Virus record (IMG/VR): IMGVR_UViG_3300014913_000809 | Location: 1 to 30,540 of that record | Reading direction: 5' to 3' (one strand) | Length of the DNA: 30,540 nt | From: a virus | Part shown: positions 909-29,630 of the stretch, one piece after another | How positions within the stretch are numbered: position 1 is the stretch's first letter | Layout of the letters: every line of letters begins with the position of its first letter | The notes under the pieces: model-generated | Databases searched by the model: none | Told to the model about the DNA's origin: nothing | What the model saw: only the letters and a program-made list of their open reading frames with translations | Program-made: the position numbers and the translations under genes

Positions 909-926
909 TATTAACCATTCTCTCCC

Positions 927-1796: not shown

Positions 1797-1797
1797 A

Positions 1798-4276: not shown

Positions 4277-4286
4277 ATTACAACTC

Positions 4287-4862
4287 CTATAAAATATAAA
4301 TTAACTGTACATCATTTATTATAGGTTTTTTATTTATACTATTCATAAAATCACGTACATAATGACCTTTTCCACCATCTTTTCTATTATCATCTATAGC
4401 TATTATAGCCCCTTCCTTCAATTTTGGTAAAATAGCACAAAATTCTTTTAAATGATGTAACATAGATAAATGCTGAATTTGTGAATTATTAAAATCAATG
4501 TCATATGAGTCCAAATAAACAAGGTCTATATCATTATCAACACACAAATTCCATAAAAAAGGCACACTATCTGAATGATTAACTGTTGTTTTATTAGAAG
4601 TAAGTGAATTAGCTAAATCACAATGACCTTTTTCTTTGTCCACACTAAACACAGCACCATCATAAAAATTAACGAACTCATCAAATAAAACTGTACTCAT
4701 ACCATCGCCAAGAAAATTATCTCTAGTTCTAGCACAACCTGTTTCTACTATAACATAAAAATTTTTCTGTTTAGATTCCAATAATTTAAAAATTTTTCTA
4801 AAAGTCTGTCTACGCGGCCCCATTTTATTAGCATATTTTTTATCATAATAATTTACAAACAT
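4287..4862 (-). CDS. Class I SAM-dependent methyltransferase-like protein
   Basis: 191 residues. FYVIVETGCARTRDNFLGDG (from about residue 35) is a motif I-like strand and loop. AVFSVDKEKG gives the acidic residue after strand 2 that would bind the ribose of SAM. DLVYLDSYDIDF followed by LPKLKEGAIIAIDDN matches the strand 4/5 region of Methyltransf_24/CmcI-like proteins. The glycine loop is less canonical (ETG rather than GxGxG), so activity is less certain than for the other methyltransferase. The ATG overlaps the previous TAA by one base (TAATG). As part of the glycan block it may methylate a sugar or a phosphate-linked substituent; that role is inferred from context. Confidence 0.6.
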   Translation of the reverse strand: MFVNYYDKKYANKMGPRRQTFRKIFKLLESKQKNFYVIVETGCARTRDNFLGDGMSTVLFDEFVNFYDGAVFSVDKEKGHCDLANSLTSNKTTVNHSDSVPFLWNLCVDNDIDLVYLDSYDIDFNNSQIQHLSMLHHLKEFCAILPKLKEGAIIAIDDNRKDGGKGHYVRDFMNSINKKPIINDVQLIYIL

Positions 4863-9646: not shown

Positions 9647-10106
9647 TATTCAACACCTCGCTAATATAATATAACCCTTGTAAAATAGCATCAGTAATAT
9701 CATTACCATCTTCAAAAGTTAAATGTTTTAGTTTAGATTTATATTTTTTCTTAATAAAATCAAAAACTTCTTTCTTAGTTTTAATTTTATAAGATGACCT
9801 TATTTTATTAGGACTTAAAAATTTTATCTCTTTATTATGTAATGCTGCTAACAAATTAACAATACCAGCAAACTGACTTAACAATTTTAAAGTCTTCACA
9901 TTTCTTAAATATGTATCTTCTACTAAAATAATATCCGGATTAAAAATTTTTAATAAATTATCAATATAGTTATAAAACCAATATAATTTAAACTTAGCTT
10001 CAATATCTGGCATAATTACAACACCATAATACAATAATTTAAATTTATCGTTTATAATAACCCAGCCTGTACTCTTAGATGAAACATCAAGCGATAAAAA
10101 AATCAT
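9639..10106 (-). CDS. RuvC-like Holliday junction resolvase
   Basis: 155 residues, the usual length of RuvC-type phage resolvases. The RNase H-fold catalytic carboxylates are in place. D7 is in IFLSLDVSSKSTGW (first strand), E63 is in PDIILVEDTYL, and the C-terminal pair D136/D139 is in GNDITDAILQGLYY. The enzyme would cut four-way junctions made by RecA-driven recombination or branched replication intermediates before packaging. It overlaps the nuclease gene downstream by 8 bases and the zinc protein upstream by one base, which ties it to the recombination genes. The ATG at 10106 starts exactly at the first catalytic strand, so no longer start is needed. Confidence 0.85.
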   Translation of the reverse strand: MIFLSLDVSSKSTGWVIINDKFKLLYYGVVIMPDIEAKFKLYWFYNYIDNLLKIFNPDIILVEDTYLRNVKTLKLLSQFAGIVNLLAALHNKEIKFLSPNKIRSSYKIKTKKEVFDFIKKKYKSKLKHLTFEDGNDITDAILQGLYYISEVLNNE

Positions 10107-10417
10107 TAATTAACCTCCCAACTAAAACCACAATTTGGACATGTATATACATCGCCTTCTCTTATAACTGGTTGATTGCAGCGCAAACATACATCTATCA
10201 AATCAGACATCGAAACACTATGTTCACCAAACGATGCAAATTCATCTGGCCCAAAAGAAATACTATCGTAAATTTCACCATTTTTTAATCGGATAGATGA
10301 TAAACAATCTCTACATACTAAATAAGTTATTTCAACTTTTCCACCACAATTATCACAAATAAATACATCAGTTCCAACGTTTACTAAATCCTCACTTCCA
10401 CATTTAATACATTGCAT
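10106..10417 (-). CDS. Small zinc-ribbon protein with five CxxC knuckles
   Basis: 103 residues containing five CxxC pairs: C3/C6, C21/C24, C35/C38, C77/C80 and C93/C96. The first and second pairs, and the fourth and fifth, each form a plausible four-cysteine zinc ribbon. The third pair lacks an obvious partner, unless the ribbons are arranged differently. The middle (residues 39-76) is acidic and non-cysteine. Tandem zinc ribbons of this size in phage replication blocks usually bind nucleic acid or protein partners, but no named family is recognised. The gene is one base from the gene upstream in transcription, so it belongs to the same operon as the primase and resolvase. Confidence 0.6.
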   Translation of the reverse strand: MQCIKCGSEDLVNVGTDVFICDNCGGKVEITYLVCRDCLSSIRLKNGEIYDSISFGPDEFASFGEHSVSMSDLIDVCLRCNQPVIREGDVYTCPNCGFSWEVN

Positions 10418-10418
10418 A

Positions 10419-10793
10419 TTAAACCTCCATCATTTCAATTAAATTACCAACAATATCTACATAATCATCTTTAATAACTAAAGCTATAGGTACAAAAGCT
10501 TGATTATCTTTCATATCTGGATATTGTGCTGTAGCAAATAATAGTTTAGAAATGGCTGGTAAAAATACAACATCCATATTTTCATCGTCATTATGTGATA
10601 ATATATTAAACTCACCATCTTTCTCACTAAACAACTTATCATTTAAATCAACATATTTACCGCGCCGCGGAACTCGTAAGCTATATTGTTCTTCATATAC
10701 TTTAAATTTATAATTTCTAGATGGTAATAGTAACGGTGTAGGAGTTCCAGAAACTTCTACAAATTCATTTTCTATCTTTTTCTTTTTAGCCAT
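10419..10793 (-). CDS. Hypothetical protein of the replication block
   Basis: 124 residues, not recognised. It has a lysine-rich start (MAKKKKIENEFVEV), then a mainly beta-type sequence with short strands (NYKFKVYEEQYSLRVP, MDVVFLPAISKLLFAT, AFVPIALVIKDDYVDIVG) and an acidic middle. No cysteines, membrane segments or catalytic motifs are visible. It overlaps the primase gene by 8 bases, so it is translated with it. A small beta-rich protein next to primase could be an accessory or nucleic-acid-binding factor, but nothing in the sequence fixes this. Confidence 0.6.
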   Translation of the reverse strand: MAKKKKIENEFVEVSGTPTPLLLPSRNYKFKVYEEQYSLRVPRRGKYVDLNDKLFSEKDGEFNILSHNDDENMDVVFLPAISKLLFATAQYPDMKDNQAFVPIALVIKDDYVDIVGNLIEMMEV

Positions 10794-11838
10794 TAATTAT
10801 TCCTCCTAACAATGATTTAAGCTGCTTTATAGACAAATCAGCTGGATCTTTACCGGTATATGGTAAAAAAATAGGTTTGATAATTATTTTATCTTTCATA
10901 TCTGACAGTGCATCAACTGTACCTTTTATACCTGCTTTATCAGCATCAAATAAAGTATAAAGACACTTAGCATATTTATAAACTAATTTTTGCTGACCAT
11001 CAGTTATTTTACTTCCCATGCACGCTACAACATTTTTATATCCAGCCATAAACAATTTCCAAACTGATTTAAATCCCTCAACCACTATTAATTTTCTATT
11101 GTCTCCTAGATATAATTTAGCGTTGTGTAAATTATAAAGCACCTCATTCTTTTTAAAATTCTCAGTTAAAATATATTTACATTCATCCTCGGCTTGGCCT
11201 GTTATATCTCTACAGCTATATGCTACCAATCTACCGTTATCATCACGGATAGGAATTACTTCTCTCTGTAAGCCAAATTTATCAACATAACCACCACCTA
11301 TTTCAAAATAATCTAACACTTCTTTTGGAAATCCACCATTCTCAGGTTTTTCAAAAAAATTGGTTCTAAATTTCTTAAAACTTTCTAAATATTCTTCACT
11401 AACTAATGATGGTGGCATGTATTGATTATTAAAAATTTCTTTTATAAATTCTTTCTTATCAGCTTCATCTTTATATTTCACAAACAAATTAGAATCATTA
11501 ATATTCAATCCTGTGATATTCTCTAGATAACTCACTGCTTCAATAAAATTTAAATTTAACATATACATCACTAGACTAATGACATCATATCCTATATCCT
11601 CATGGCAATGATGAGAAAAACATACCCAATTTTTAGTCTCTTTATTCATTCTAAAAGCGGTTTTATTATCACCACCATGTACCTTACATGCAGCTCTTAT
11701 CTCTTTAGGCGTTTCTCTATATATCACAAAGCCTAAAGATTCTAATAACTGTCTAGCGTCTACGGCTTCTTTTAACTTAGCTATTCTATATTTTCGTTCT
11801 TCATCAGAATAACTGTTCGTTGTTTTCATTACTGCCAT
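10786..11838 (-). CDS. DNA primase, DnaG-type (CHC2 zinc finger plus TOPRIM)
   Basis: 350 residues, shorter than bacterial DnaG because no C-terminal helicase-binding domain is present. The N-terminal zinc finger is C51-x2-H54 with C73-x4-C78 (AACKVHGG and WVCFSHHC). The TOPRIM catalytic domain shows E254 in KLIVVEGFKSVWKLF and the D298-x-D300 pair in YTLFDADKAGIKG. It would synthesise RNA primers at the replication fork together with the DnaB-like helicase encoded immediately upstream, whose 3' end it overlaps by 35 bases. The first ATG (11838) has GAGGA eight bases upstream and is preferred over an ATG three codons later. The long overlap means the primase ribosome site lies inside the helicase coding region. 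Confidence 0.9.
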   Translation of the reverse strand: MAVMKTTNSYSDEERKYRIAKLKEAVDARQLLESLGFVIYRETPKEIRAACKVHGGDNKTAFRMNKETKNWVCFSHHCHEDIGYDVISLVMYMLNLNFIEAVSYLENITGLNINDSNLFVKYKDEADKKEFIKEIFNNQYMPPSLVSEEYLESFKKFRTNFFEKPENGGFPKEVLDYFEIGGGYVDKFGLQREVIPIRDDNGRLVAYSCRDITGQAEDECKYILTENFKKNEVLYNLHNAKLYLGDNRKLIVVEGFKSVWKLFMAGYKNVVACMGSKITDGQQKLVYKYAKCLYTLFDADKAGIKGTVDALSDMKDKIIIKPIFLPYTGKDPADLSIKQLKSLLGGIING

Positions 11839-16392: not shown

Positions 16393-16995
16393 TTACCTCT
16401 CTAGATTATCTAATATTTTTTGTAAATTATTCTTAGAGTCATCCATTTCTTTCTCAATCTGAACTTCGATGTCTTCAGCAATATTTTCACTCTCCAACAT
16501 TTTATTCTTCTCAATTTTTTCATTCATTAATCTAAGCGCTTTATCAGTTACCCACGCCATTTTTTTCTGCCCCAAAATACGTATATCAGGTACTCTATCA
16601 AAGTTAAATTCATCTAAATTATCAAAAATTGTATTAATAATTGCTGCTGCTTCTTGAATTGCATTAAAACGATTTAACCCTTCAGCCTCTCTCGCTTCAA
16701 CTAACAAACGTAAATATTTTAAATCAATTTGATAGTTACCAAACATATAATTTTCATCTATTTTAAATTTTTCATACAAACGATTATAAAATAACTTACG
16801 CAAATCTTTCAGGGTAACTATTTTTTCATCAACAAAAATTGGAGTTAGAACTTTATACCCAACTTCTATAGCCAAATCACGTACTTCTTCTTTTGAACAT
16901 ACCACCTTATAACCATGCTCTTCAACAATACGCATAGCTTCTTTCAAACGTTTCTTATCAAAATCTTCTCCACTAAAAATATCAAAAGCTTTCAT
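16393..16995 (-). CDS. Hypothetical protein between clamp and recA
   Basis: 200 residues, not recognised. Three parts can be seen. The first is an N-terminal alpha/beta part (MKAFDIFSGEDFDKKRLKEA, then a GYKVVCSKEEVRDLAIE helix). The second is a helical middle with aromatic residues (YMFGNYQIDLKYLRLLV, then AAAIINTIFDNLDEF). The third is an acidic, coiled-coil-like tail from about residue 155 (LMNEKIEKNKMLESENIAED). It has no cysteine pairs or ATP-binding loop. The ATG overlaps the stop of the clamp gene as ATGA and recA follows after a 2-base gap, so it is tightly tied to the replication genes. Roles such as helicase loading are possible but unsupported. Confidence 0.6.
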   Translation of the reverse strand: MKAFDIFSGEDFDKKRLKEAMRIVEEHGYKVVCSKEEVRDLAIEVGYKVLTPIFVDEKIVTLKDLRKLFYNRLYEKFKIDENYMFGNYQIDLKYLRLLVEAREAEGLNRFNAIQEAAAIINTIFDNLDEFNFDRVPDIRILGQKKMAWVTDKALRLMNEKIEKNKMLESENIAEDIEVQIEKEMDDSKNNLQKILDNLER

Positions 16996-18113
16996 ATCAT
17001 TCTCAATGTCGAAATCAATGTGGTGTAATTTTCATTTTCAGATTTAAAAACAATAAATTTCAAATCATTGTTTATACAAATATCAATTACATCATACATA
17101 AAATATTGCAAAACACTTTCAAGTAAAACACCATTTACAGCAAAAATGATTTCTTCATTTACAGTATAATCTAGTTCATGTTCAGTTTCAACCCTTTCAT
17201 TAGCAACAATCAATCTGTTTCCATTAAATTTAAAAATAATCCTATTATCATCTTCAGCATTGAATGTATCTGATATAGTTTTTACAGTATCATAAACAGC
17301 GGAACGTGGGAACCTATATTTCTTATCAGTATTATATAAAATTTGTTTATAATCAGGATATTCTTCATTTATAATTAATGAGCCAACCAAAAATATTTTA
17401 TCAAATTTAAAATATGCATATTTAGAGCCAAATTTAATAAAAACTTGCTGATCCAAATCTAATAAATTGCGCAAAATATTAGCTAAACTATAACTAAATA
17501 AGACAATTCTTTCCGGCATATTAGTTTGTAATGAAATAATATACTCAGCCAAACGTACACCATCCGCACCAACAAAAATAATTTTATCATTATAAATTTT
17601 AATATAAAGACTAGACAACGCTTTGCGCATTTCCATTGGATTAACTAAATTTAAAGTTTTAATAATGCCATCTTTCAATATACTACTATTCAAAACTAAA
17701 TCAGCTTGTTTAACTATTTTAATTAAAGGAAACATATTTGAATTATAAACATCAAAGTGTAATTTACGGTAGGAATATTTACCGCCTTCGAAAAAAGTTT
17801 TTGCTTTAACCAATCCTGTTCTATTAACTATAAAATGAAATTCTTTAGTACCGACTGTTTCGTTATACGCTGTAAATTTGGAAATATAGCCTTTTAGATC
17901 TCTAAATTTAAATAAAATTGTGCCTTGTTCTATAATATTTGCTGTCTTCGATTCTATAATTATTGACAAAACGCCATTTGTAGCCTTAAATAAAAGTTTA
18001 TCTGCCGCTTCTATACAAACCATTCCAATTACCGTGTCTTCAGATGGTTTAACTATTCCATTAAGCTTATTAAAAATTTGTTGCAATTCATGAACAGATA
18101 TTTTAAATTCCAT
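16992..18113 (-). CDS. dnaN: DNA polymerase sliding clamp, DnaN (beta subunit)-like
   Basis: 373 residues, the length of bacterial beta clamps (three similar domains). The family landmarks are an N-terminal FKISVHELQQIFNKL helix, SLYIKIYNDKIIFVGADGVR (about 168-187) corresponding to the ATDGHRLA motif of the second domain, NEEYPDYKQIL (249-259) corresponding to the FPDYRxVLP motif that starts domain 3, and IIFKFNGNRLIVANE. It would encircle DNA and tether the replicative polymerase. It is the first gene after the strongest promoter in the window, with a GAGG ribosome site. Conservation is low outside these landmarks, as usual for phage clamps. A phage-encoded DnaN-type clamp rather than a T4 gp45-type clamp is notable. 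Confidence 0.85.
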   Translation of the reverse strand: MEFKISVHELQQIFNKLNGIVKPSEDTVIGMVCIEAADKLLFKATNGVLSIIIESKTANIIEQGTILFKFRDLKGYISKFTAYNETVGTKEFHFIVNRTGLVKAKTFFEGGKYSYRKLHFDVYNSNMFPLIKIVKQADLVLNSSILKDGIIKTLNLVNPMEMRKALSSLYIKIYNDKIIFVGADGVRLAEYIISLQTNMPERIVLFSYSLANILRNLLDLDQQVFIKFGSKYAYFKFDKIFLVGSLIINEEYPDYKQILYNTDKKYRFPRSAVYDTVKTISDTFNAEDDNRIIFKFNGNRLIVANERVETEHELDYTVNEEIIFAVNGVLLESVLQYFMYDVIDICINNDLKFIVFKSENENYTTLISTLRMI

Positions 18114-18142
18114 ATAAATACCTCGCCGTATTTTTTACTTAT

Positions 18143-18171
18143 ATTATAACACAAAAATTTATTTTTGTTAA
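18143..18171 (-). promoter_or_regulatory. Sigma70-type promoter of the replication operon
   Basis: Read on the minus strand, TTAACA (-35, positions 18171-18166) is followed by exactly 17 bases and then TATAAT (-10, positions 18148-18143). The -10 is preceded by TG-T, giving an extended -10. That is five of six and six of six consensus matches with the optimal spacer. The -35 box begins immediately after the stop codon of the upstream structural gene, and the clamp ATG lies about 30 bases after the -10 with a GAGG site between. This would drive dnaN and the recombination and replication genes after it. It is the only near-consensus promoter I found; weaker ones may exist. Confidence 0.75.
18151..18168. 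repeat. Perfect palindrome inside the promoter spacer (possible operator)
   Basis: ACAAAAAT-TT-ATTTTTGT: two 8-base arms around a 2-base centre with no mismatch. It overlaps the -35 box by three bases and fills the spacer between -35 and -10, where a dimeric repressor would block RNA polymerase. It could also form a weak AT-only hairpin that slows transcription coming from the structural genes, but the stem has just two G-C pairs and no separate U-run, so terminator activity is doubtful. Confidence 0.55.
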
Positions 18172-20214
18172 TTAATATTTAAAATTAAAATCATAATTAG
18201 TTGGAGGCGTATACCCTTTATCGGTAAAATTAAAGTCAGATTTATTAATAACTGCAACTAAATACCTAGACCATCTCTTCTTAACAACACCTATTGGATT
18301 TATATGGGCCTTTAGACAAGTAATTTTATCCAAAAATGGATAAATCTCAGCTTTTAAATCGTATTCTCTATAAGCCGACACTCTATCTATTAAATCTCTA
18401 ACTGCTTCATCAATTGAATGATATTTATTAATATTAAAAATAAACTTAGTTCTAACAGCCTTTCTCTCAATCATATCAGTTTTATCTGAAACATAAGAAT
18501 ATGCCCAGATAGTCCAGTGTCTATTTCTATCGACTTTATAAACTTTATTTTCGCCACTTACATAAAAATAATGGTATGGCTCCGCCCCACCTTTTCTAAA
18601 CATTAATTCTACAAAGCGCCTCCATTTTTCACGCCCTTTACCATCAAACTTTATAACCACCTCATGACTTTTTGGCTTAATATATTCCGGTAATTCGCTA
18701 TAATTTCTAGGTGTTATAACTTTTATACGAGCAGGCAAATCATTAAACCGTAAAGTACCAATAATATTGGCTATCAAATCTTTAAAATAATATGCACCAA
18801 ATAAAACATCTATAGTATTAAAAACATAATAATCATGTTTAGGCTTTACAACAATTCTATCAACAGTAAATTTACGTAGTTGTGGTGTGGACTTAATAAT
18901 TAATTTATCTTCAACTTGATACAATGTGCTATTAATAAAAGCTCCTAAATCTAAATATCCATCATTAGCCCTCCACGGAAAAATAAAAGCATGTAAATCT
19001 TTTTTATAAATAGTATATAAATAAGCTTCGAGGTCATTAAATGACGAAGCAAAACACGAATAATTAATTACAGCGTTTAAATCTGAATGTTCTAATAATG
19101 AAACCAATAATACTTTCTTCAAATGCACTACTTTAGGTATAATCTTAGCTACCAAATCTATAGATTGTCCTTTAGAAACAAGTATAGCTTGTAAATTTAC
19201 ACTATTAATTCCAAAAATTTGAGCGCCGAGCGTACTTATATACAAACCACTAATAATAGCTCTTAAATCAAAAGGCACATTAAGGCCTTTATACCCATGT
19301 ATAGTAGCGACAAGATCTTTATACGTTATAGCATATATATATGCATGAATATGCCCAGGCCCATAACCACCAATAATTATAGCTGGTAATCCTCTAATTG
19401 TAAATCCATGTATTTTTGCACTCAAATCTATTGGATTTATTGTGTATAATAGAGCTTGCAGAGTTGCTACACTAGTCGATTGAATTACAGCCAATAAATC
19501 AAATTTATAAACAGTCGCTATTATTCCGACTAAATCAAAGGTATCATAACCGTGTAATTTACCAATTAAATTGAAAACACCTCTTTGCCAAATCTTATAA
19601 ATATTACCATATAAATCAAATTGGCCGTGCCACCACTCACCATTAATAGAACTTATCAAATCACGTATTTCAATTATATTTAAATAAGCACTTAAATCAG
19701 TTGGCAAATGAATTTTTATATCTGCTAAAATATCACTAATTGCAAAGCCAGATAATAAACCACTTAAATCTTTAATGGCAAAACCATGTAAAATTCCATA
19801 CAAATTAATAGGAGGAATAGTTGTAACTGCAGCCCCTAAATTATAATATGCTTGTATAGTACTACGTAAATAAGCATTTAAATCAATAAAATTAATCAAC
19901 GCATAAATTGATGCTTTTAAATCAACATTAAATGGATTAGCGTAAATATACCCACCTATATCACGTATACCACCATAAATACATGGTAATTTTATTATTT
20001 GAATAGACCCTGGATAAGAAATTGTAATTGTAGGACACGATTTAAGGTAGGTATATGTAAATGTTTTATAAATACCAAAAACTTGAAGAGACGCTTTTAA
20101 ATCATTAGATGGAATTCTTCCAAATACAAAATGTATATTATTAAAACTAGGCGCAATATATCCTCTATTTGTAAATTTAAAAACTATATTATTAAAATTA
20201 GGTCTATTCGCCAT
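18172..20214 (-). CDS. Virion-type protein made of DLxAxI repeats
   Basis: 680 residues. It starts with an FNNIVFKFTNRGYIAPSF segment and ends with DFNFTDKGYTPPTNYDFNF, so both ends carry the FxFT-x2-GYxPP motif found in neighbouring structural proteins. Between residues 38 and 500 about 20-25 degenerate units follow one another, each built on a core such as DLKASI, DLSAYL, DLVATI or DLEAYL. Most are 12-20 residues apart, and several are followed by HGF or HGY. This spacing suggests stacked beta strands in a fibre or solenoid. Residues 500-620 are a different, basic and aromatic globular part (REKWRRFVELMFRKGG), after which two more repeat units precede the end. It is probably a tail or fibre component; no named family is recognised. 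The last gene of the structural block, it abuts the replication promoter. Confidence 0.65.
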   Translation of the reverse strand: MANRPNFNNIVFKFTNRGYIAPSFNNIHFVFGRIPSNDLKASLQVFGIYKTFTYTYLKSCPTITISYPGSIQIIKLPCIYGGIRDIGGYIYANPFNVDLKASIYALINFIDLNAYLRSTIQAYYNLGAAVTTIPPINLYGILHGFAIKDLSGLLSGFAISDILADIKIHLPTDLSAYLNIIEIRDLISSINGEWWHGQFDLYGNIYKIWQRGVFNLIGKLHGYDTFDLVGIIATVYKFDLLAVIQSTSVATLQALLYTINPIDLSAKIHGFTIRGLPAIIIGGYGPGHIHAYIYAITYKDLVATIHGYKGLNVPFDLRAIISGLYISTLGAQIFGINSVNLQAILVSKGQSIDLVAKIIPKVVHLKKVLLVSLLEHSDLNAVINYSCFASSFNDLEAYLYTIYKKDLHAFIFPWRANDGYLDLGAFINSTLYQVEDKLIIKSTPQLRKFTVDRIVVKPKHDYYVFNTIDVLFGAYYFKDLIANIIGTLRFNDLPARIKVITPRNYSELPEYIKPKSHEVVIKFDGKGREKWRRFVELMFRKGGAEPYHYFYVSGENKVYKVDRNRHWTIWAYSYVSDKTDMIERKAVRTKFIFNINKYHSIDEAVRDLIDRVSAYREYDLKAEIYPFLDKITCLKAHINPIGVVKKRWSRYLVAVINKSDFNFTDKGYTPPTNYDFNFKY
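18715..20103 (-). repeat. Coding array of about 20-25 degenerate DLxAxI units
   Basis: Within the protein at 18172-20214 (residues 38-500) the pattern [DN]L-x-[AG]-x-[ILV] recurs. Examples are DLKASL, DLNAYL, NLYGIL, DLSGLL, DLSAYL, DLYGNI, NLIGKL, DLVGII, DLLAVI, DLSAKI, DLVATI, DLRAII, NLQAIL, DLVAKI, DLNAVI, DLEAYL, DLHAFI, DLGAFI, DLIANI and DLPARI. Codons differ between units, so the array is old rather than freshly amplified. Confidence 0.75.
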
Positions 20215-20232
20215 TTAATATTCCTCAAGTAA

Positions 20233-22404
20233 TTAGTTACCAGGGTATAAATTATCATAGACAAGAGCATTATATTCACTATTAGTAGGATGCCTACATA
20301 TCATAAAATGAGCACCACCATACGTAGTCTGAATATAAAAATTTCCATTAGCATCAGATTCAGTAAAACCAATAAAACTCCCATCTTCTTGTTTATATAA
20401 ATAAATTAATGCGCCACTAATAGTAGATGAAGACTCAGATACAATACCAGAAAAGTACCACCCATTTACAATTTCTCCACTACTTGCAGAAGAGAAAGAT
20501 GGCTCGGAAGAGATATATTTTCTCACAAAAATATTGTCAAACTCATTAATCGAATTATACCAACACCCTAATCCAAACGCGCCACTATCTGCAATTGAAG
20601 AATCACTCACAGTTAGAAGCACCGAATCATCAACAAGTCCTTCCAAACTCGTTCCACTAATCCGAAACTCTAACTTATGAGTAGCGTTGACTGTAGGTCC
20701 TGAAGAAGTTTGCGTAAGAGTAGTATGCGAACCACTAATTGTCTTTCCTATGAACCATGTCATCCCAATGTCCCCACCGAAGTCATATTTTGTATTTCCA
20801 CTGATCTGCCTCAAACGAAGGGAGTATCTTTCATTATACTGCGGAAAAACGGTAGCAGTGATTGAAGCATTCTGAACATTTCCTCTATAACAATTAAAGC
20901 CTTTATTATCGTTACTATCTACTCGAAGTCGCCCATTCGACATCGACAGTGTACCTACACCTGCCGTAGTCCAACCCGTTGTATCACCTGAATCATTGAA
21001 ATATATGAAAGTCCTTTCACCGTTACTTACATTACTTACATTTGCATTTCCGTAATAACAGTAAATATCCACATCCGAATCTAAGCTATCATTTATTTTA
21101 ACCCAACAATAAGCCACTCTATCTGGTGTCGAACCCTCTACTTTTTCTACCCAAAAATTCAACAAGGTAGACTCGTCGTTATCAACAAACCGCAGATCTC
21201 CAGATTCATCGGTACCAGAGGGGAAGTTTTGAGAGTGACCCTCTACGTGAAAATCACAATTACTAGATCCAGAACTCTCTCCTACTTTTAAAAGGACTTG
21301 ATAACCTGTCCCAGCTCCAGAAGAACCAGAGATAGTAATTTCCTTCCTATATCTCCAATTCCCTAAATGCTCTTGAATAAGATTGTTAAACAGAGAGTAA
21401 TAAGTTGCTTTAAGCCAAGCATCTGACCTAGCTACACTAGAAATACGAACCTCATCAATTAAACCGTCGAAATACCCTTCCGCACCAGCATAAGACCGAC
21501 GCCCTATATTTGTATTACTATTAACTGAATTAGGGGTTGACCAAGCGGCGCTACCCCCATCATAACTATCATTAAGCCATGTTTTCCAACCAAGAGTGGA
21601 ATTTCCTTTCGCGACAACGAAATAATCTGTGTTATTAGACACAGTTATTTGGCCCGCCTGCCCTTTTATTGTGGGTGCTCCATTTATTTGGAGCATAATT
21701 TTATTGCTTCTAAATCCTAAAGCATAAGCGCGTCCTGAACTATTATCTCTCCCTACAGTAAATACCTCCCACGAACCCGTTTCTACGGAACCATTTATAA
21801 CTGTTTCTATAGTCATCTCAGTTGTTGGATTTAATGACGAATCATTGCCACAGTCGATATAATCATCGCTCCCATCGAAGTCTAATGCTTTCCCAACTTG
21901 ACCATCTACTAAATCACTTGAGGTCATACTTCCTTGGGGAGTGCCGTCATTATTATTTCCCGTGCTATCCTTAATACAACCTACCCCACCAGTTGGGTCT
22001 TGTGATAAATGCCAAACACCTGCGAAATTGCTATCCCAAACATTTGCAGCGACAGAATCTCCAGGGTCTCCAACATAAGTTGTGTTGTCTGCGACGGACG
22101 CGTCATAGTAAAGATAAAAATAAGTATCAAACGAGGATGAAATAGTCCAAGACGATCTAGAGATATGGAGAACCGCTTGTTTACTTGACAAGTCCCATAC
22201 CTCAACTTCTACATAAAGTTGAGTAGTACCATCATCAGAAGTAACTGCGATCTTTTTATAGTTAGAACCTAGTCCATTAAAGACCGCATCAGCATTATCT
22301 TCGGTCAAGAAGAGAGTAACCGGGAAGTGGGTAAGGTCAGAATCAATCTTGGTATGATCAATCTTAAAGCAAATTCTATGTGAATATCCTGAAAGCCAAC
22401 CCAT
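20233..22404 (-). CDS. DUF2341/LamG-type adhesin, higher-GC member
   Basis: 723 residues from the ATG at 22404, which has GGAGG at ideal spacing. A TTG four codons earlier lies across that ribosome site and is rejected. Domain order: an uninterrupted DUF2341 (1-125, from HRICFKIDHTKIDSDLTHF), a LamG/concanavalin-like lectin domain (about 125-340, closing with GLIDEVRISSVARSDAWLKA), a second DUF2341 (from NWRYRKEITISG), a jelly-roll-like region, and a C-terminal carboxypeptidase-regulatory-like module (last 76 residues). It is likely a carbohydrate-binding virion protein. The body is visibly richer in GC than its neighbours (25/60 at 21121-21180, 29/60 at 21181-21240), while the C-terminal module (20233-20463) is AT-rich like the rest, indicating a mosaic origin. 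Confidence 0.8.
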   Translation of the reverse strand: MGWLSGYSHRICFKIDHTKIDSDLTHFPVTLFLTEDNADAVFNGLGSNYKKIAVTSDDGTTQLYVEVEVWDLSSKQAVLHISRSSWTISSSFDTYFYLYYDASVADNTTYVGDPGDSVAANVWDSNFAGVWHLSQDPTGGVGCIKDSTGNNNDGTPQGSMTSSDLVDGQVGKALDFDGSDDYIDCGNDSSLNPTTEMTIETVINGSVETGSWEVFTVGRDNSSGRAYALGFRSNKIMLQINGAPTIKGQAGQITVSNNTDYFVVAKGNSTLGWKTWLNDSYDGGSAAWSTPNSVNSNTNIGRRSYAGAEGYFDGLIDEVRISSVARSDAWLKATYYSLFNNLIQEHLGNWRYRKEITISGSSGAGTGYQVLLKVGESSGSSNCDFHVEGHSQNFPSGTDESGDLRFVDNDESTLLNFWVEKVEGSTPDRVAYCWVKINDSLDSDVDIYCYYGNANVSNVSNGERTFIYFNDSGDTTGWTTAGVGTLSMSNGRLRVDSNDNKGFNCYRGNVQNASITATVFPQYNERYSLRLRQISGNTKYDFGGDIGMTWFIGKTISGSHTTLTQTSSGPTVNATHKLEFRISGTSLEGLVDDSVLLTVSDSSIADSGAFGLGCWYNSINEFDNIFVRKYISSEPSFSSASSGEIVNGWYFSGIVSESSSTISGALIYLYKQEDGSFIGFTESDANGNFYIQTTYGGAHFMICRHPTNSEYNALVYDNLYPGN

Positions 22405-22416
22405 AATTACCTCCAA

Positions 22417-24348
22417 TTATAAAAACCCTTTTGGTTGTACTCTATCTAAAATTAAAGCATTATAATCATAACCTGTATCATCATCAAACGCGACAATAAA
22501 ATGAGCACCACTAATTGGTGTTTCTAAGTAGTATTTACCAGTAATAGAGTCTGAATAACCCTCATCTATTAACTGGCCAGTCTGTCGGTCGTAAAGTCTA
22601 ACTAATCTAGACTTTGGTACATCCATTTCATAAACATATCCATCATAAAAATAACGTTTTGCGCCATGCCAAGAAACTAATTGATTTATGATAGAATAAT
22701 ATGTAGCTTTTATCCAACCTGAAGATCTAGCTATATTAGATATTCTTATTTCATCTATTACTTCATTCCCATATTCCACCCCACCTGGGGGGTCCACTCC
22801 TATATATAATTTATGTGATGAATCCATAGAATCTATCGGACCATTCCATGTAGATGGTGAATTACTATCCATTACACCATTAATATATTGTGACGCTTTT
22901 TTAGTATTATAATCATACAATCCAACTAAATAATACCACGCATCAACTTGCAATGCTGTATTACAAATTAAAGCATACTGATCCGGCCTATTCCAATTAA
23001 ACATAACCCTAAAATGTTTTCCATTTAAAACTTGTTGCAATGTATATGAAGAGTATTTAGGACTATAACCCCCCCAACAACCAACACAAAAAATACCACT
23101 AAAATCACTAAACTCTTTAATCTTAATATATGTCTCCAATGTTATACTACCAGTTATATTTAAAGAACTAGAATAGTTAGCAGCTAAATAATCATCATCA
23201 CCATCAAAGTCTATAGCTTTATTTATAGGCGATTCTACTAAATCAGAAAAAGTCATATTACCATATGAAGTCGTATTATTAAAATTATTTGTAGAATCTA
23301 ATACATTATAATTACTTGGATCTTGGCACATATGATAAACAGCTTTAAAATTAGAATCCCACACCCTAGAACCAGTCGAGCTAGCTATATCACCTACATA
23401 ATCAACGTTATCTATTGCGTTAGGGTCATAATACAAATATAATTCTGTATCAACACCAGAAGCAATAGTAAAATTATCCCTTGATACATGTAAAACTACT
23501 TTTTTAGCACTGACATCAAAACACTCAACTTCCGCATATAATTGTGTTTGTCTATCATCTTTTGTTATAGCAATTTTCTTTCTATATGGGTGATTAGAAC
23601 CGTTTGGTGATGGCCAATATTCTATGCCAGAACTAACTGTGAAATTATCAAAATCTACAGAAACAGTAGTGTTATTATTAGGTTTGTATAAACCTAATAA
23701 TACTACATATTCAGTATTATAAAACCCAGATCTAGAATCTAACTCTACCCAAGTAGAACTATTTCCATCTATTATATACGTAGTTAATGTCGTTCCTTGT
23801 TTAACAATACGCAATTTACCATAATTATTAGACCTAGTCATATAAGTATCATAAGATGTACCGTTTATAACAATATGTGAAAAAAACATATCATCGCCGT
23901 GGCTAGAATGATATCCTGCCTTTACAAATACTTGATTAGAAGAATCTCCACTTAATGGGTATAATTTAATCTCACACCCTACACCATCATGCTCGTCGCC
24001 TAAATTCAAATTGTTAAAATCTACATATAAATCTAAATTGTCTTTAAAAACAAAATTAGATCTTAACCTAGTATATTCAGCGTCTGCACTCGTATTAATA
24101 ACTTCATGAAGCATATTTGAACTTATATATATACTACCGTTAGATGATTTAACAATTGACCACTTATCAATATTTGGTAATGACCCGTCATTACCGCTAA
24201 AATCGTCATTTAAATTATATTTCATTTTATCAAAAAAATCATCATAATTCACAAGTAATGTCAATGGAAAATATGTTAAATCTTCATCTATGTAATTCGA
24301 ATTTACCTTTAATTTACATTTATACCTAAAATCTTGTAAATATCCCAT
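22417..24348 (-). CDS. DUF2341/LamG-type adhesin with inserted jelly-roll domain
   Basis: 643 residues. The N-terminal half of DUF2341 (1-46: YKCKLKVNSNYIDEDLTYF) is separated from its second half (from about 255: KKIAITKDDRQTQLYAEVEC) by an inserted domain. The insert opens DDFSGNDGSLPNIDKW, a jelly-roll-like start. A LamG-type domain follows (DFDGDDDYLAANYSSSLNIT, closing with VIDEIRISNIARSSGWIKAT). The last 78 residues are the shared C-terminal module (YVYEMDVPKSRLVRLYDRQT ... YNALILDRVQP). No signal peptide is present, as expected for a virion protein assembled in the cytoplasm. It probably binds host surface glycans. An AGAGG site precedes the ATG. Confidence 0.75.
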   Translation of the reverse strand: MGYLQDFRYKCKLKVNSNYIDEDLTYFPLTLLVNYDDFFDKMKYNLNDDFSGNDGSLPNIDKWSIVKSSNGSIYISSNMLHEVINTSADAEYTRLRSNFVFKDNLDLYVDFNNLNLGDEHDGVGCEIKLYPLSGDSSNQVFVKAGYHSSHGDDMFFSHIVINGTSYDTYMTRSNNYGKLRIVKQGTTLTTYIIDGNSSTWVELDSRSGFYNTEYVVLLGLYKPNNNTTVSVDFDNFTVSSGIEYWPSPNGSNHPYRKKIAITKDDRQTQLYAEVECFDVSAKKVVLHVSRDNFTIASGVDTELYLYYDPNAIDNVDYVGDIASSTGSRVWDSNFKAVYHMCQDPSNYNVLDSTNNFNNTTSYGNMTFSDLVESPINKAIDFDGDDDYLAANYSSSLNITGSITLETYIKIKEFSDFSGIFCVGCWGGYSPKYSSYTLQQVLNGKHFRVMFNWNRPDQYALICNTALQVDAWYYLVGLYDYNTKKASQYINGVMDSNSPSTWNGPIDSMDSSHKLYIGVDPPGGVEYGNEVIDEIRISNIARSSGWIKATYYSIINQLVSWHGAKRYFYDGYVYEMDVPKSRLVRLYDRQTGQLIDEGYSDSITGKYYLETPISGAHFIVAFDDDTGYDYNALILDRVQPKGFL

Positions 24349-24359
24349 ATTATACCTCT

Positions 24360-24707
24360 CTAACTAACAACATTAATATCAGTTATATTAAAACCGATTA
24401 ACGTTTCACCAACAGCTCCAGAATACGTTGTGGTATAAAAATCTACAACGCTGTTTGACTCAAGATCAACTATATTTAAACAATTATTTGAACCTATAAA
24501 CATTTTATTATTATACACCCACACAGACGTAAAATTATTAGATTCACCCATTAATACATTAAAATTTCTAACATTAACACCAAAATTAAAATTAGAGTCT
24601 GGACTATAACCAGCTTCCGTAAAATTAAAATTACAAATTTCACTCTGACCGAAATAAAAATTTAAATTTGATACAGGCCTATTTATAAAATTAAAAACCG
24701 TACCCAT
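24360..24707 (-). CDS. Short FNFT/GY motif protein, truncated relative of the propeller-like protein
   Basis: 115 residues. The N-terminal third has the strand motifs VFNFINRPVSNLNFYFG and NFNFTEAGYSPDSNFNFG, which match the ends of neighbouring structural proteins. From residue 52 the sequence resembles one blade of the protein at 26893-27684: NFTSVWVYNNKMFIGSNNCL here against FTSVWSNNDYVFVGTVNSG there. It ends soon after, so it looks like a shortened copy, or a single-blade cap, of that protein. It overlaps the next adhesin gene by one base (TAATG) and has GAGGG upstream. Function is presumably structural in the virion. Confidence 0.55.
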   Translation of the reverse strand: MGTVFNFINRPVSNLNFYFGQSEICNFNFTEAGYSPDSNFNFGVNVRNFNVLMGESNNFTSVWVYNNKMFIGSNNCLNIVDLESNSVVDFYTTTYSGAVGETLIGFNITDINVVS

Positions 24708-26635
24708 TATAACGCCCTCGGAATTAAACGATCTGCAATTAAAGCATTATATTCTTCTCCTTCATCATCATCAAAAACAACTACAAAATGTTGACCACTA
24801 TATGACGTTATTACTCTATAATAACCATCTCCACTAGAAGTTGTTGTATCTACTAATTCTCCTGATAATCTATAATATAAACGAACTAATCTCTTAACAG
24901 GCAAACCATCTTCTTTAACATACCCATCAATATAATAAATAGGTCTATATTCAATATCACCATAAGTAATTAATTCATCCCAAATTGTATAATAAGTAGC
25001 TTTTATATAAGCATTTGAGCGCTTAATTTTTGAAATACGCACTTCATCTAATGCACCAGTATATAAATCATTCCCATCTGAACGTCTTCCAAACCATAAA
25101 TTAGAATTAGGCCAATTAGCGCCAAAATTTGTTTTTTTACTAGGCGTACTATTATCTAATATATGATAACAATCAGTTCCATCCCAATAATGAACATTAT
25201 AATGCCATTTATCATCATAAACAACGTTTGTTGCTTCCTCATACCAATGAGAACCATTACTCCAAATAGCTAAATTATTACCGTAATTATAAATGCCACA
25301 ACCATTTTCATTGCCAGCCGAAAAATCCCAAAAAACATGTGCATCACCGCCAGGACTTGTTGCTGCACTCTTAAATAAGTACTCCATAATCCATTGATTA
25401 GATGTTGTTCCAATGTTATGGGCTATATGAATATAATCATCACTACCATCAAATTTAATCGCACGCCCAGTTTTAGCATCCACCAACGATGAAAATTTCA
25501 TGCCACCGCCAGAAGTGCCGTGATTAGCATTGCTAGTAGAATCTTTAATAGCATTAGCACTATCATTATCAGGGTTTTGCGACAAGTGGTAAACACATAA
25601 ATAATTATCATCCCATACCTGCGTAGCAGGAACCTCGCCTATATAACCAACTGTAGTATCATTATCCTCCTCACCGTCATAGTAAAAATATAAAACAGTG
25701 CTTATACCTGATGCTATAGTAGGTACCTTAACCCATAAAGTAGCATCATTAAATGTCCAATGCTCAATTTCAGTATAACATGGTGTATGTTCATTTGTAG
25801 TAACAATAAACTTTTTAGAATCTGCCTGTACATGAGTAATTTTAATATTATCATAGTATTGAGTACCAGTATGACTATAAGTATGCCAATGAAAATTTAA
25901 TTTAAATTCTGTACCTATATAATCTAAGATTGTAGAATCAAAACTAGATGATCCTATAAATTGGTCATCAATATACAACCTAATTACAAATGTATCAAAA
26001 TTAATAACCCATTTTACATAATGATGATTACCATATGTAAAATTTTCATTGATCAAAGTAGTCCATAATCCATTCAAGCGCTGCAAACACGAAATTTTAT
26101 TACTTTTATTCGAACGTAAAGCTAATATTAATTTAGAATTTGTACCACTGGCATATTCAGGTTCATTATACTGCCAACTACCAGTATTATAAGTAGGGTT
26201 AGTACATAAAATAGATAATTGATTTTTAGCATCGCTATTATCATCATCATACCATACAGAACTATCGGCGGGATACCAATCAAATTCAATAATATATTTG
26301 CCACTAGTTTCAAATGAAGATTTACTTAATACATTAACTCCTTCTCTATCCCCACCCCCATTCAATTGTAAACGCAGTTTACCACTATTATAATCTGAAT
26401 ATGAATCGCCATTAGATTTGTCTTCCCATTTATTTATAAATCCACCACTGCAATCATCACTAAAAACAACACCGCTAGTTGTTAAAGTTGTTATAATATC
26501 TGTAACATCTTTTTGGTTGATACCAGCCGCTGATGATAATTTAACCATTAGTGGAAAATCAGTTAAATCACCTGTTATTTTAGTACCATCAATACTTAAT
26601 TTTATACGTTTATTCCACGGACTTAACCACTCCAT
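24707..26635 (-). CDS. DUF2341/LamG-type adhesin with inserted jelly-roll domain
   Basis: 642 residues. DUF2341 starts with NKRIKLSIDGTKITGDLTDF and is interrupted at about residue 57 by an insert starting FSDDCSGGFINKWEDKS. It resumes at about 273 with KKFIVTTNEHTPCYTEIEHW. The LamG-type domain follows (KFDGSDDYIHIAHNIG, closing with ALDEVRISKIKRSNAYIKAT). The C-terminal module (YVKEDGLPVKRLVRLYYRLS ... YNALIADRLIP, last 76 residues) is the closest match to the stand-alone protein encoded next to it. A GGAGG site precedes the ATG. It is likely an alternative or additional receptor-binding protein of the same virion structure as its paralogues. Confidence 0.75.
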   Translation of the reverse strand: MEWLSPWNKRIKLSIDGTKITGDLTDFPLMVKLSSAAGINQKDVTDIITTLTTSGVVFSDDCSGGFINKWEDKSNGDSYSDYNSGKLRLQLNGGGDREGVNVLSKSSFETSGKYIIEFDWYPADSSVWYDDDNSDAKNQLSILCTNPTYNTGSWQYNEPEYASGTNSKLILALRSNKSNKISCLQRLNGLWTTLINENFTYGNHHYVKWVINFDTFVIRLYIDDQFIGSSSFDSTILDYIGTEFKLNFHWHTYSHTGTQYYDNIKITHVQADSKKFIVTTNEHTPCYTEIEHWTFNDATLWVKVPTIASGISTVLYFYYDGEEDNDTTVGYIGEVPATQVWDDNYLCVYHLSQNPDNDSANAIKDSTSNANHGTSGGGMKFSSLVDAKTGRAIKFDGSDDYIHIAHNIGTTSNQWIMEYLFKSAATSPGGDAHVFWDFSAGNENGCGIYNYGNNLAIWSNGSHWYEEATNVVYDDKWHYNVHYWDGTDCYHILDNSTPSKKTNFGANWPNSNLWFGRRSDGNDLYTGALDEVRISKIKRSNAYIKATYYTIWDELITYGDIEYRPIYYIDGYVKEDGLPVKRLVRLYYRLSGELVDTTTSSGDGYYRVITSYSGQHFVVVFDDDEGEEYNALIADRLIPRAL

Positions 26636-26649
26636 ATACCCTCCGACAA

Positions 26650-26889
26650 TTACGATGTAGTAGGATAAACATTACCAATAATTAAATCGTTATATTCAAC
26701 ACCAGATGAGTCATCTAAACAAACAATATAATGTGAACCACTATAAGTAGTTTCTAATTTATAATAACCATTCCCACTAGACGTTGTTGTAGCAATCAAC
26801 TCACCCGTATCACGCCTATGTAAATAGAGCTTACGTGAAACAGGTATCCCTTTTTCATACACATAACCTTCAAAATATCCACCAGGCAT
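26650..26889 (-). CDS. Stand-alone copy of the adhesin C-terminal module
   Basis: 79 residues consisting almost only of the module that ends the four adhesins: GYVYEKGIPVSRKLYLHRRD, then TGELIATTTSSGNGYY, then EYNDLIIGNVYP. The pattern (a strand with a polar turn, TGEL, S-x2-GYY, then YN-x-LI) is that of small carboxypeptidase-regulatory-like beta sandwiches, which often mediate attachment to a particle. It has its own GGAGT ribosome site and ATG, so it is expressed as a separate protein. It may cap or decorate the site the adhesins use, or be the remnant of an adhesin that lost its body. It precedes the 642-residue adhesin by 14 bases in transcription. Confidence 0.7.
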   Translation of the reverse strand: MPGGYFEGYVYEKGIPVSRKLYLHRRDTGELIATTTSSGNGYYKLETTYSGSHYIVCLDDSSGVEYNDLIIGNVYPTTS

Positions 26890-26892
26890 ATT

Positions 26893-27684
26893 TCAACTCC
26901 TTGTACAATAAATATCATAACAATCAGTATACTCATCAATAACATAAACACCAGAAGTTGTAGCTAAAAAAATCGTATTATAACCATTAGTAGCCGTGCC
27001 CTCAGTAATAAACAAATCATTAATACCTATACCACTAGCTAAAACCCCACTTCCAGTTATATATTCTTTATCTGGCTCTGACCAATCAAACAATGAGGTA
27101 TATACACAACATAATTTTGACTCATTAGAACCAGATACCGTATAATAAAATTTGCCAGATGACGTAATAAACCCTTTTTGTGCCCCACTAGTTAATGTAT
27201 AACTTCTATAACTCTGTGGGTTTATACTTACTACATCAACACCAGAATCAGTAATAACTAATAAAATATCATTATTACCGTGTAAATACTTTATATTAGA
27301 AGACGTTAATTCATAATATGGCGTCAAATCAGAAAAATCATTTAAACATGTAGTAATATCATACGGACTAGCCGTACTACCACTGATACATGTTGCCTCG
27401 ATATATTTAATTCCACTATTAACAGTACCAACAAAAACATAATCATTATTTGACCAAACACTAGTAAAACCACCAGAATAGGTTATATAAGCATATGGTT
27501 TTTCATCAAGTAAATCATAAATATCAAGAGACTCGTTAGTAGCAGCATATAAAAAATCTAATGTCCATATACTATTAATAGATTTTGTAACAAAATCATA
27601 TACACTGCCGCTAAATGAGGGAGGAGTATAACCGCCAATAGTAAAATTAAATATTCCACCACTAACAACAGGTATATTAGACAT
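26893..27684 (-). CDS. Propeller-like virion protein with N-terminal FNFT/GYTPP motif
   Basis: 263 residues. IFNFTIGGYTPPSFSGSVYDF (motif start at residue 11) is the shared structural motif. The remainder is a run of beta blades with VWS, YVFVGTVNSGIKYIEA, DILLVITDSGVDVVS, GKFYYTVSGSN and NTIFLATTSGVYVIDE strands, typical of a WD/NHL-type propeller with about five blades. The last strand ends in YCTRS. No catalytic motif is visible. It stands between adhesin genes and shares its first blade with the short protein at 24360-24707. It is likely a baseplate or tip component. A GGGG site precedes the ATG. Confidence 0.6.
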   Translation of the reverse strand: MSNIPVVSGGIFNFTIGGYTPPSFSGSVYDFVTKSINSIWTLDFLYAATNESLDIYDLLDEKPYAYITYSGGFTSVWSNNDYVFVGTVNSGIKYIEATCISGSTASPYDITTCLNDFSDLTPYYELTSSNIKYLHGNNDILLVITDSGVDVVSINPQSYRSYTLTSGAQKGFITSSGKFYYTVSGSNESKLCCVYTSLFDWSEPDKEYITGSGVLASGIGINDLFITEGTATNGYNTIFLATTSGVYVIDEYTDCYDIYCTRS

Positions 27685-27686
27685 TA

Positions 27687-29627
27687 TTAATCCCCATACT
27701 TAATTTTATCTTTAGCAATAATGTTATATGATTCATCAAGTTTAGGTAAAATTACAACAAAATGATAATCATCATATGGAGTAGGTATTTCAAAATAACC
27801 TGTACTTGAATTAGAAACAGTAGACCCTACAAATTCTCCAGTTAATCTTCTATATAAATAAACAGTCCTAGCAACTGGAACATTATTAACTTTAACATAT
27901 CCTGAAAATATAAAAGATGGTTTTATTTCTTCTGTTGAATATGTAATTAAATTATCTTTTAATGAACAACTAGAACTATAAAGCCATGCGTCACTTCGAC
28001 TAGTATTAGATATCCTTAATTCATCAATAATACCATCAAAATATTGATCTCCTCCACCATAATTACGCCTTCCAATACATAAAAGATTATCTTCATTTTT
28101 AATATAATTTACTGAAGTAGATCCACTAGCACTTACTTCACCATTTATATAAATTTTTAAATAATTACTAGCATAAAAATTGTAACCAAAAACATAATTA
28201 ACCTTATTTTGTACTTGATTAACAGTTTGAACAGAAGTATGTATAGAAGTATTTTGTACTACTTCGCCAAAAATTTTATTAGAATTATTTAAACCAAATC
28301 GTAAAGAAACATCGTCCCACCAATGTGCACCGTCTGATATTATAGTCTGCTGAGAATTTAACACATCAATAGAACATGCCGCTTCAATTGTTAATTGTGA
28401 TTGATTATCAATCATATCTTCAGGAATAGTTATATAATTATTGGACCCATCAAATTCTACTGCTTTGGACGTAATACTAGATCTAATATCATCAAATTCA
28501 AAATTATGGGCTGTCCCATCCTTACTATTATTAGTAGAGTCCTTTATAACATTATTTGAATTCAAATGATATACAGCTAAAAAACCACTATCCCAAACTT
28601 GTTGTGCCGCATATTCGCCTACATGCCCAATATATGAATTATTACTAGCGTTTTTATCATAATATAAATAAAGATCTAAATCAGTTCCAGAACTAATGGT
28701 CGGGATTTTAGCCCATAATGTACCATTCTTAAAACCAGATGATGTAGGCCAATAATCAACCTCCACATAACATTGAGTATCAGAACCGGAGACAGCAGTA
28801 TATAATGCAATTTTTTTACTATTATTCTTTGGTATTTCTACATATACATCTTTAAATCGTTCAGTATTATTCTTGTTATAATCATCAGTAGATAATTCTA
28901 ATTTCATATAAGAACCTAAAGCTTGCCAATCAGTATCATTTACTGTACCAGTAAGTTCATATATATCATCTAATTTTACTAATAATTCTTTAGTATCACA
29001 ATCAATCTCCCAATATATATCATGCCATTCATTCTCATCGATATCTATACTAACAGTATCCAATGTAGTCCAAGTTTGACTAGAAACGCTATACAGACGT
29101 AATTGCGTTCTATTGATAGTATCACTGTCTGCACCCAGCCCCAAATACAAACAATTATCGTTAATATATCCATAATAACTATTACGTGTAGTAGTAGTAT
29201 AATTATAAAAAATTACAGCTGGAATAGGAGCGCTACTATAATGATTCTTATGCGGTTTCCATTTACAACTAAAAATTATTTTTCCTTTTTTAGGTATATT
29301 AACTTTACTATCACATTGAGCTCCAGAATGTGCATTACCTGTAAAATTATTTAATTCTAATGCGCCGCTAACAGTAACTGACGCATTTGGCACTATATTG
29401 GTATTCCATTTAGATGTATCTAAAGATGTGCCGCTAAATGTATCACTTATTATATAATAATTTTCTAACAATTCATCAAATACACAAGTAGTATCTACTT
29501 TAGTAATTCCCGAAGAATCTGATAAATGTATCATTATAGGAAAATTACTAATATCCTCACTTATTTTACTACCATCAATTGTAAGTTTTAAACGTTTATT
29601 ATATGCACTATCATGCCACGTATACAT
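27687..29627 (-). CDS. DUF2341/LamG-type adhesin with inserted jelly-roll domain
   Basis: 646 residues from the ATG at 29627, with GGGGAG eight bases upstream; a TTG directly before it is less likely. DUF2341 opens with NKRLKLTIDGSKISEDISNF, is interrupted near residue 57 by an insert starting ISDTFSGTSLDTSKW, and resumes near 275 with KKIALYTAVSGSDTQCYVEV. The LamG-type domain follows (EFDGSNNYITIPEDMI, closing with IIDELRISNTSRSDAWLYSS). The C-terminal module (GYVKVNNVPVARTVYLYRRL) is the most divergent of the five copies: it ends in YNIIAKDKIKYGD and lacks the YNALI sequence. It is probably a carbohydrate-binding virion protein like its paralogues. Confidence 0.75.
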   Translation of the reverse strand: MYTWHDSAYNKRLKLTIDGSKISEDISNFPIMIHLSDSSGITKVDTTCVFDELLENYYIISDTFSGTSLDTSKWNTNIVPNASVTVSGALELNNFTGNAHSGAQCDSKVNIPKKGKIIFSCKWKPHKNHYSSAPIPAVIFYNYTTTTRNSYYGYINDNCLYLGLGADSDTINRTQLRLYSVSSQTWTTLDTVSIDIDENEWHDIYWEIDCDTKELLVKLDDIYELTGTVNDTDWQALGSYMKLELSTDDYNKNNTERFKDVYVEIPKNNSKKIALYTAVSGSDTQCYVEVDYWPTSSGFKNGTLWAKIPTISSGTDLDLYLYYDKNASNNSYIGHVGEYAAQQVWDSGFLAVYHLNSNNVIKDSTNNSKDGTAHNFEFDDIRSSITSKAVEFDGSNNYITIPEDMIDNQSQLTIEAACSIDVLNSQQTIISDGAHWWDDVSLRFGLNNSNKIFGEVVQNTSIHTSVQTVNQVQNKVNYVFGYNFYASNYLKIYINGEVSASGSTSVNYIKNEDNLLCIGRRNYGGGDQYFDGIIDELRISNTSRSDAWLYSSSCSLKDNLITYSTEEIKPSFIFSGYVKVNNVPVARTVYLYRRLTGEFVGSTVSNSSTGYFEIPTPYDDYHFVVILPKLDESYNIIAKDKIKYGD

Positions 29628-29630
29628 CAA

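Follow-up and report, generated by a model that had tools for sequence, protein, structure and literature searches.

We found that gene A, on the minus strand of an AT-rich virus contig, very probably encodes a phage surface adhesin whose two parts have different histories, an acquired DUF2341-LamG body and a CnaB-like C-terminal module that is the phage's own. The body appears to have been taken from a pool that is shared with an unrelated phage lineage of higher G+C content, rather than from a donor that can be named. The window, which is the whole stretch of DNA that we analyzed (30,540 nucleotides), is a single 30.5-kb virus contig with 30.1% G+C. Predicted lectin-type domains and gene context suggest that the body binds a receptor, and the domains and gene context of the module are consistent with attachment to the tail. 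The capsid and tail genes of this phage lie outside the window, and by analogy A may be part of the virion tail.

Gene A and its neighbors

The features of gene A and of the surrounding adhesin cluster are as follows.

20233..22404, minus strand: gene A, 723 aa, DUF2341-LamG-DUF2341-LamG-like body and C-terminal module (open reading frame, Pfam)
20464..22404, minus strand: body of gene A, foreign, codons 1-647, 40.2% G+C (synonymous GC, DNA identity to the adhesin gene L009)
21848..22404, minus strand: conserved block 1 of the body, with the DUF2341-like N-terminus and the beginning of LamG
21445..21864, minus strand: hypervariable LamG interior, codons 181-320, 28-52% DNA identity to L009
20965..21444, minus strand: conserved block 2 of the body, end of LamG and second DUF2341, codons 321-480
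20524..20964, minus strand: second hypervariable LamG-like stretch, codons 481-627
20470..20523, minus strand: junction zone RKYISSEPSFSSASSGEI, codons 628-645, conserved in L009, L014 and L015a
20233..20463, minus strand: native C-terminal module, ~75 aa, predicted CnaB/carboxypeptidase-regulatory-like beta-sandwich (alignment, model, fold matches, codon usage)
18172..20214, minus strand: g18172, 680 aa, conserved gene downstream of A that anchors its position in related phages
22417..24348, minus strand: paralog B, split DUF2341-LamG body and module, normal composition
24360..24707, minus strand: g24360, upstream marker, whose L053 ortholog is followed directly by a bare module
24707..26635, minus strand: paralog C, DUF2341-LamG body and module plan, with an 85% identical ortholog in L053
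26650..26889, minus strand: stand-alone module E, 79 aa
27687..29630, minus strand: paralog D, DUF2341-LamG body and module plan

The ATG at 22404 is the likely start of gene A, rather than the TTG at 22416, because homologs begin there. By alignment, the protein begins with a DUF2341-like block and a LamG domain, continues with a second DUF2341 and another LamG-like stretch, and closes with the end module. Pfam matches lie above the curated cut-offs for Laminin_G_3 (PF13385) at residues 177-330 (1e-8; 35.9 bits, cut-off 27.6) and for DUF2341 (PF10102) at residues 402-480 (5e-17; 62.6 bits, cut-off 23.4), and residues 560-629 give a weak lectin match to Glyco_hydro_59_C under its cut-off (E 0.002). 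The full-length structure model is poor (pLDDT 49), so the LamG and DUF2341 assignments rest on the Pfam matches; it was set aside, and our structural reading used the model of the module only.

We looked for flanking repeats around the body of A that would point to a dedicated exchange mechanism and saw none; the sole long direct repeat (95 nt, 75%) belongs to the C and E modules. A separate motif, NFxFTxxGYxPPxxxxFxFG, recurs at the end of g18172 and near the starts of g24360 and g26893 (window 20130-20200, 24600-24700 and 27600-27680).

The composition of gene A changes at its start and at its module

Whole gene A has 39.3% G+C. The body reaches the 40.2% listed above, as compared to a mean of 29.4% (sd 1.3, maximum 32.9%) in windows of the same length elsewhere. 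The best-fitting GC segment over 16992-29630 is codons 21-666 of A (log-likelihood ratio 42), and the best segment for GC at codon position 3 over the same range is codons 12-651 of A (22371-20454; log-likelihood ratio 34). When gene A is taken alone, position-3 GC breaks at codon 650, where it falls from 0.308 to 0.135; the codon permutation p value for this break is only 0.03 because the module is short. The other composition break of the body is the start of the gene, so that the entire gene except for its end is foreign in composition. The earlier note had proposed from hand counts that composition changes near the start of the C-terminal module, and its counts were all exact (25/60 and 29/60 at 21121-21240, 26/60 at 20641-20700 and 14/60 at 23101-23160). 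The change that it proposed is borne out by the position-3 break at codon 651 (20454), the profile around 20460 is not smooth, and the last codons of A (20233-20463), which it had put at about 28-33% G+C, have 74/231, or 32.0%.

To separate codon choice from protein content, we fixed the amino-acid sequence and took the expected G+C from the phage's own codon usage. Gene A has a synonymous z of +9.9 as compared to –1.9 to +2.1 for the other 29 genes, and all seven of its seven body segments have z of at least 3.1. The last 77 codons of A have z = 0.1, which is phage-like codon usage. Since the synonymous excess is found at fixed amino acids, the G+C break in A is not an amino-acid effect, and amino-acid content was ruled out as the cause of the rise. 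A smaller rise to 38-39% G+C in gene C (25300-25699), over a DUF2341-LamG border, is probably amino-acid driven because synonymous usage over the whole of gene C is normal.

The body of A is shared with unrelated 44%-G+C phages

When we searched viral contigs with A, we found matches at six places in five other contigs (L009-L013, with L014 on a separate contig), which have 44% G+C. These matches cover residues 1-656 at most and leave the module unmatched. At the DNA level, A is 82.7% identical to L009 over 567 bp (22414-21848), with the likeness to the 44%-G+C phages in block 1 starting at the ATG, and 76.5% identical over 460 bp (21468-21015) at the second DUF2341, where identity to all of these phages (L009-L013/L054 and L014) is 74-77%. 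Over about 550 bp counted from the ATG, their identity to A is 83%. Over codons 1-120, A and L009 are 87-88% identical, which exceeds the 73.6% of backbone genes compared with G006, a true relative of the window phage. In blocks of 20 codons, identity to L009 is 70-93% for codons 1-180, 28-52% for codons 181-320, 72-90% for codons 321-460, past which the similarity in conserved block 2 drops, 33-53% for codons 461-620 and 75% for codons 621-640 at the junction. This alternation indicates a conserved scaffold with lectin interiors that either are replaced or evolve fast.

The genomes themselves are unrelated by tblastn of the 30 window proteins against G002 and G005. In G002, only A and, more weakly, paralogs B-D find matches, besides a generic 26% RecA-type match, and the rest of the window genome is unrelated to both. 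A and L009/L014 share a body fragment and have unrelated C-termini; the C-terminus switches beside the conserved stretch of the junction zone, and it changes at the same junction in four genes. In a tree of the first body unit, A groups with G002/G005-type rows (86/94) and apart from B, C and D; the support for A's own placements, here and in the module tree, is moderate and not starred, and the second DUF2341-LamG unit is too divergent for a usable tree. The body of A was correctly taken to be foreign, given its DNA identity over the first 567 bp to the adhesin gene of an otherwise unrelated phage.

L009 encodes 1330 aa, and its residues 690-1330 match phrog_1082, annotated 'tail assembly protein' (4e-19). 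Its gene cluster holds a tape measure, the adhesin, a BR0599-type tail assembly protein and a J-like tail protein. The 2495-aa protein of L014 has the same C-terminus (87% DNA identity over 1998 bp from codon 666) and a different body. That the L009 body is joined to a tail component offers the strongest indirect evidence for A being a virion adhesin with its C-terminal module as the joiner. A contig of an independent bacterial MAG (L054, JAGGSE010000232.1, isolate AUK014) carries the L009 locus with 100% identity over 10.6 kb, and this MAG may be the host of the L009 phage or the phage may have been binned with it.

In IMGVR_UViG_3300016457_000282, which carries L009 and L013, one 14-kb tail region is present in two copies of opposite orientation, near both ends of the 150-kb contig; this points either to a large inverted repeat or to an artefact of assembly. 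In IMGVR_UViG_3300017593_000402 (L045-L051), a contig of 137 kb, G+C drops from ~44% to 37% at about 78 kb, and the contig may join two different genomes, or a virus and its host.

The C-terminal module is a predicted CnaB-like beta-sandwich

By alignment, the ~75-aa module is common to A, B, C, D and the stand-alone E. The model of the A module (pLDDT 91) is a six-stranded beta-sandwich, and its best matches among solved structures are SdrD B, CnaB-type domains (CnaB2 TM 0.67) and pilins, all with E > 0.001. Pfam scores are below the cut-offs for A with CarboxypepD_reg (PF13620; 17.4 bits, cut-off 32.3) and for E with SdrD_B (PF17210; 19.2 bits, cut-off 29.7). The profile of phrog_27013, a family of unknown function, matches the modules of A, B and C at 2e-5 to 2e-7 and that of E at 4e-4, and does not match the module of D. 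The best viral structural match of the A module is the C-terminal part of Sphingomonas phage vB_StuS_MMDA13 gp24 (A0A7G3PIB0; Foldseek E 8e-7, TM 0.88). A sequence search also placed the module in tail fiber proteins of Stenotrophomonas phages; in phage DLP4 it lies near the N-terminus, so a C-terminal location is not universal.

In the module tree, A groups with the bare module of L053 (88/92) and B groups with L015a (96/94), and a forced grouping of A with L015a was rejected (p = 0.02). The module alignment is too divergent for a scan of the collection.

Related phages carry modules at the place of A

The close relatives of the window phage are all metagenomic contigs. G006 (68 kb, about 30-32% G+C) and L053 (a 22-kb contig, 31% G+C) have more than a dozen genes colinear with the window, and g18172 is 66% identical at the amino-acid level to its ortholog in G006 and 59% in L053. 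In L053, the order is the C ortholog, the g24360 ortholog (1923-2252; 55% amino-acid identity), a bare ~82-aa module and the g18172 ortholog. A's module has no closer relative than this bare one (45-47%). G006 has two genes with bodies ahead of its g18172 ortholog. L074, which is more distantly related, lacks an adhesin beside its clamp gene and is uninformative on the join of body and module.

The first of the two G006 genes, L015a, has two parents. Identity to the L009 body is 78% over its bases 1-908, and identity to the module of B in the window (22427-22653) is 74% over its bases 931-1157; neither parent matches the other's part. Within G006, the body of L015a is compositionally foreign (z = 5.4) and its module is not (z = 1.0). 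Positions 21020-21299 of A are also 78% identical in DNA to L015a. The contigs of the relatives end inside or beside the adhesin cluster (L015 at position 1, L053 at position 1 and L014 at positions 1-114), which suggests that the region is hypervariable or repeated in populations.

Comparison of the relatives at A's place thus yields a bare module in L053 and body-bearing genes, including the two-parent L015a, in G006, and the separate phylogenies differ, with the body of A among the G002/G005-type rows of an unrelated 44%-G+C lineage and its module with L053. In these sequences, modules keep their place while bodies circulate. The view that a native module, putatively for attachment, was kept holds up, since A's module is nearest to a free-standing module that a related phage carries at this position and has phage-like codon usage. 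The view that a receptor-binding body was swapped in stands as far as a foreign body is joined to a native module; fusion onto a bare module is as likely as a swap, because L053 carries a bare module at A's place.

Origin of the body

Under fusion, an ancestral bare module stood at A's place and gained, upstream and in frame, a whole foreign body that brought its own start codon, with no native body lost. Module E shows that a bare module is present in the window as well, and the foreign similarity starts at the ATG, as such a fusion would have it; however, G006 is body-bearing at the A/B place and L053 could have lost a body. We put fusion slightly short of an even chance. The same near balance applies to the reading that neither phage is the donor and that DUF2341-LamG bodies (about 0.30-0.33 GC3) entered both lineages from other viruses or cells. 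The L009 body is slightly low in G+C at home (z = –3.4, where the minimum among 42 genes is –2.2), with a GC3 of 0.33 in a genome at 0.41, and this AT shift makes a shared pool or a third source possible. In AT-rich phages, body GC3 is 0.29-0.31 as compared to about 0.17-0.20 at home, and DUF2341-LamG proteins occur in Methanoculleus viruses too. However, the L014 body is at home in its own genome (z = –1.2), so that a G005-like donor fits equally, and a genome scan found no cellular source beyond the MAG contig identical to L009. Substitutions between A and L009 over codons 1-186 show no AT excess in A (37 versus 39) that would give a direction of transfer.

Two further readings are very improbable. 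That gene A is a metagenomic assembly chimera would fit with the G006, L053 and G005 contigs ending in or beside the adhesin cluster, which marks a region that is hard to assemble; however, a chimera needs two in-frame joins, the body of A is identical to no other contig, backbone genes lie on both flanks, the independent contig G006 has the same kind of join at the same motif, and the L009 locus recurs without a mismatch in the independent MAG. Even a shade less credible is that the body is a native sibling of B, C and D whose higher G+C comes from amino acids alone. A is homologous to B-D (36-42% amino-acid identity in the first unit), and its excess is partly amino-acid driven (34.9% expected for A, about 29% for typical genes), but B, C and D have synonymous z values of –0.2 to –1.9 with the same domains that give 9.9 in A, and A is 83% DNA-identical to a foreign gene.

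A model for body exchange

In the model that we favor for the adhesin of two histories, codons 1 to about 645 would be a DUF2341 scaffold cassette bearing hypervariable LamG lectin-type domains, which would have entered between the start codon and a fixed junction after the RKYxxPEPSFS motif. The observed part of this model is that DUF2341-LamG bodies are shared by unrelated phages as DNA segments, with the start codon and the conserved RKYxxPEPSFS stretch as their bounds. The conserved DUF2341 blocks may serve as homologous landing sites, which would also account for the patchwork within the body. The CnaB-like module would join A to the tail, like the phrog_1082 part in L009, and the LamG domains would bind a surface ligand, either a cell-surface glycan or a protein. 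Recombination that swaps bodies would then alter what the phage recognizes.

More tentatively, and with a little less confidence than we give to fusion or a third source, we suggest that the ~75-aa CnaB-like modules are fixed docking sockets, some of them empty as stand-alone proteins, and that DUF2341-LamG bodies are exchanged as cassettes between unrelated phages that share a habitat. If so, five side-by-side sockets would give one phage several interchangeable binding specificities.

Comparison with known systems

Mosaicism of receptor proteins is itself a known kind of phage evolution, and it is established that domain mosaicism links the receptor-binding proteins of distant phages (Smug et al. 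2023, PMC10684548). As in those mosaics of tail proteins, fragments are common to otherwise unrelated proteins, exchange occurs at domain borders and transfer between distant phages is recent. In the usual layout there, the N-terminal part is conserved and binds the tail, and the variable receptor part is C-terminal; in contrast, A has its constant part at the C-terminus and its variable body at the N-terminus, and the constant part occurs on its own, too, as a small protein. In vB_StuS_MMDA13, gp24 has a ConA-like body followed by the same module and its gene lies among tail assembly genes, although the body is of the B30.2/SPRY family rather than DUF2341-LamG. A structural protein of Xanthomonas phage Elanor (Elanor_BL40045) has the same C-terminal module (45% identity) and is encoded between a tail gene and lysis genes, but its body is unrelated to that of A. 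The tail-region protein gp33 of Methanoculleus virus Blf4 / L4768 is of DUF2341-LamG type (32% identity over 343 aa); this is an archaeal virus, however, and there is no recent transfer.

Our data document how two unrelated uncultured phage lineages share surface-binding parts: they have a DNA segment in common, the junction is fixed, the module is retained by position and a relative carries a two-parent recombinant. The reversed layout, with a bare module as a possible acceptor, offers a testable model for how arrays gain new specificities.

Sugar-related genes and an intein-like insert

A glycosyltransferase gene in the window (5992-8472, minus strand) contains an intein-like insert at about protein residues 311-690. 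The orthologs in G006 (L040 905-2200) and L074 (11697-12944) are contiguous across the site and have no insert. Stretches related to the insert (24-29% identity) are found in other G006 genes (L042 276-1514 and 8054-8908, L041 19776-20000); G006 thus lacks the insert in its glycosyltransferase yet has similar inserts elsewhere. A large sugar-related cluster, with several glycosyltransferases and methyltransferases, spans window 87-5992 and about 2200-11000 of L040, and in G006 it also has apparent aminotransferase and acyltransferase genes. In L009, a GT9-type gene (9986-10852) directly follows the adhesin. Glycosylation of the adhesin or of the host surface is a possible role for this cluster and for the GT9-type gene.
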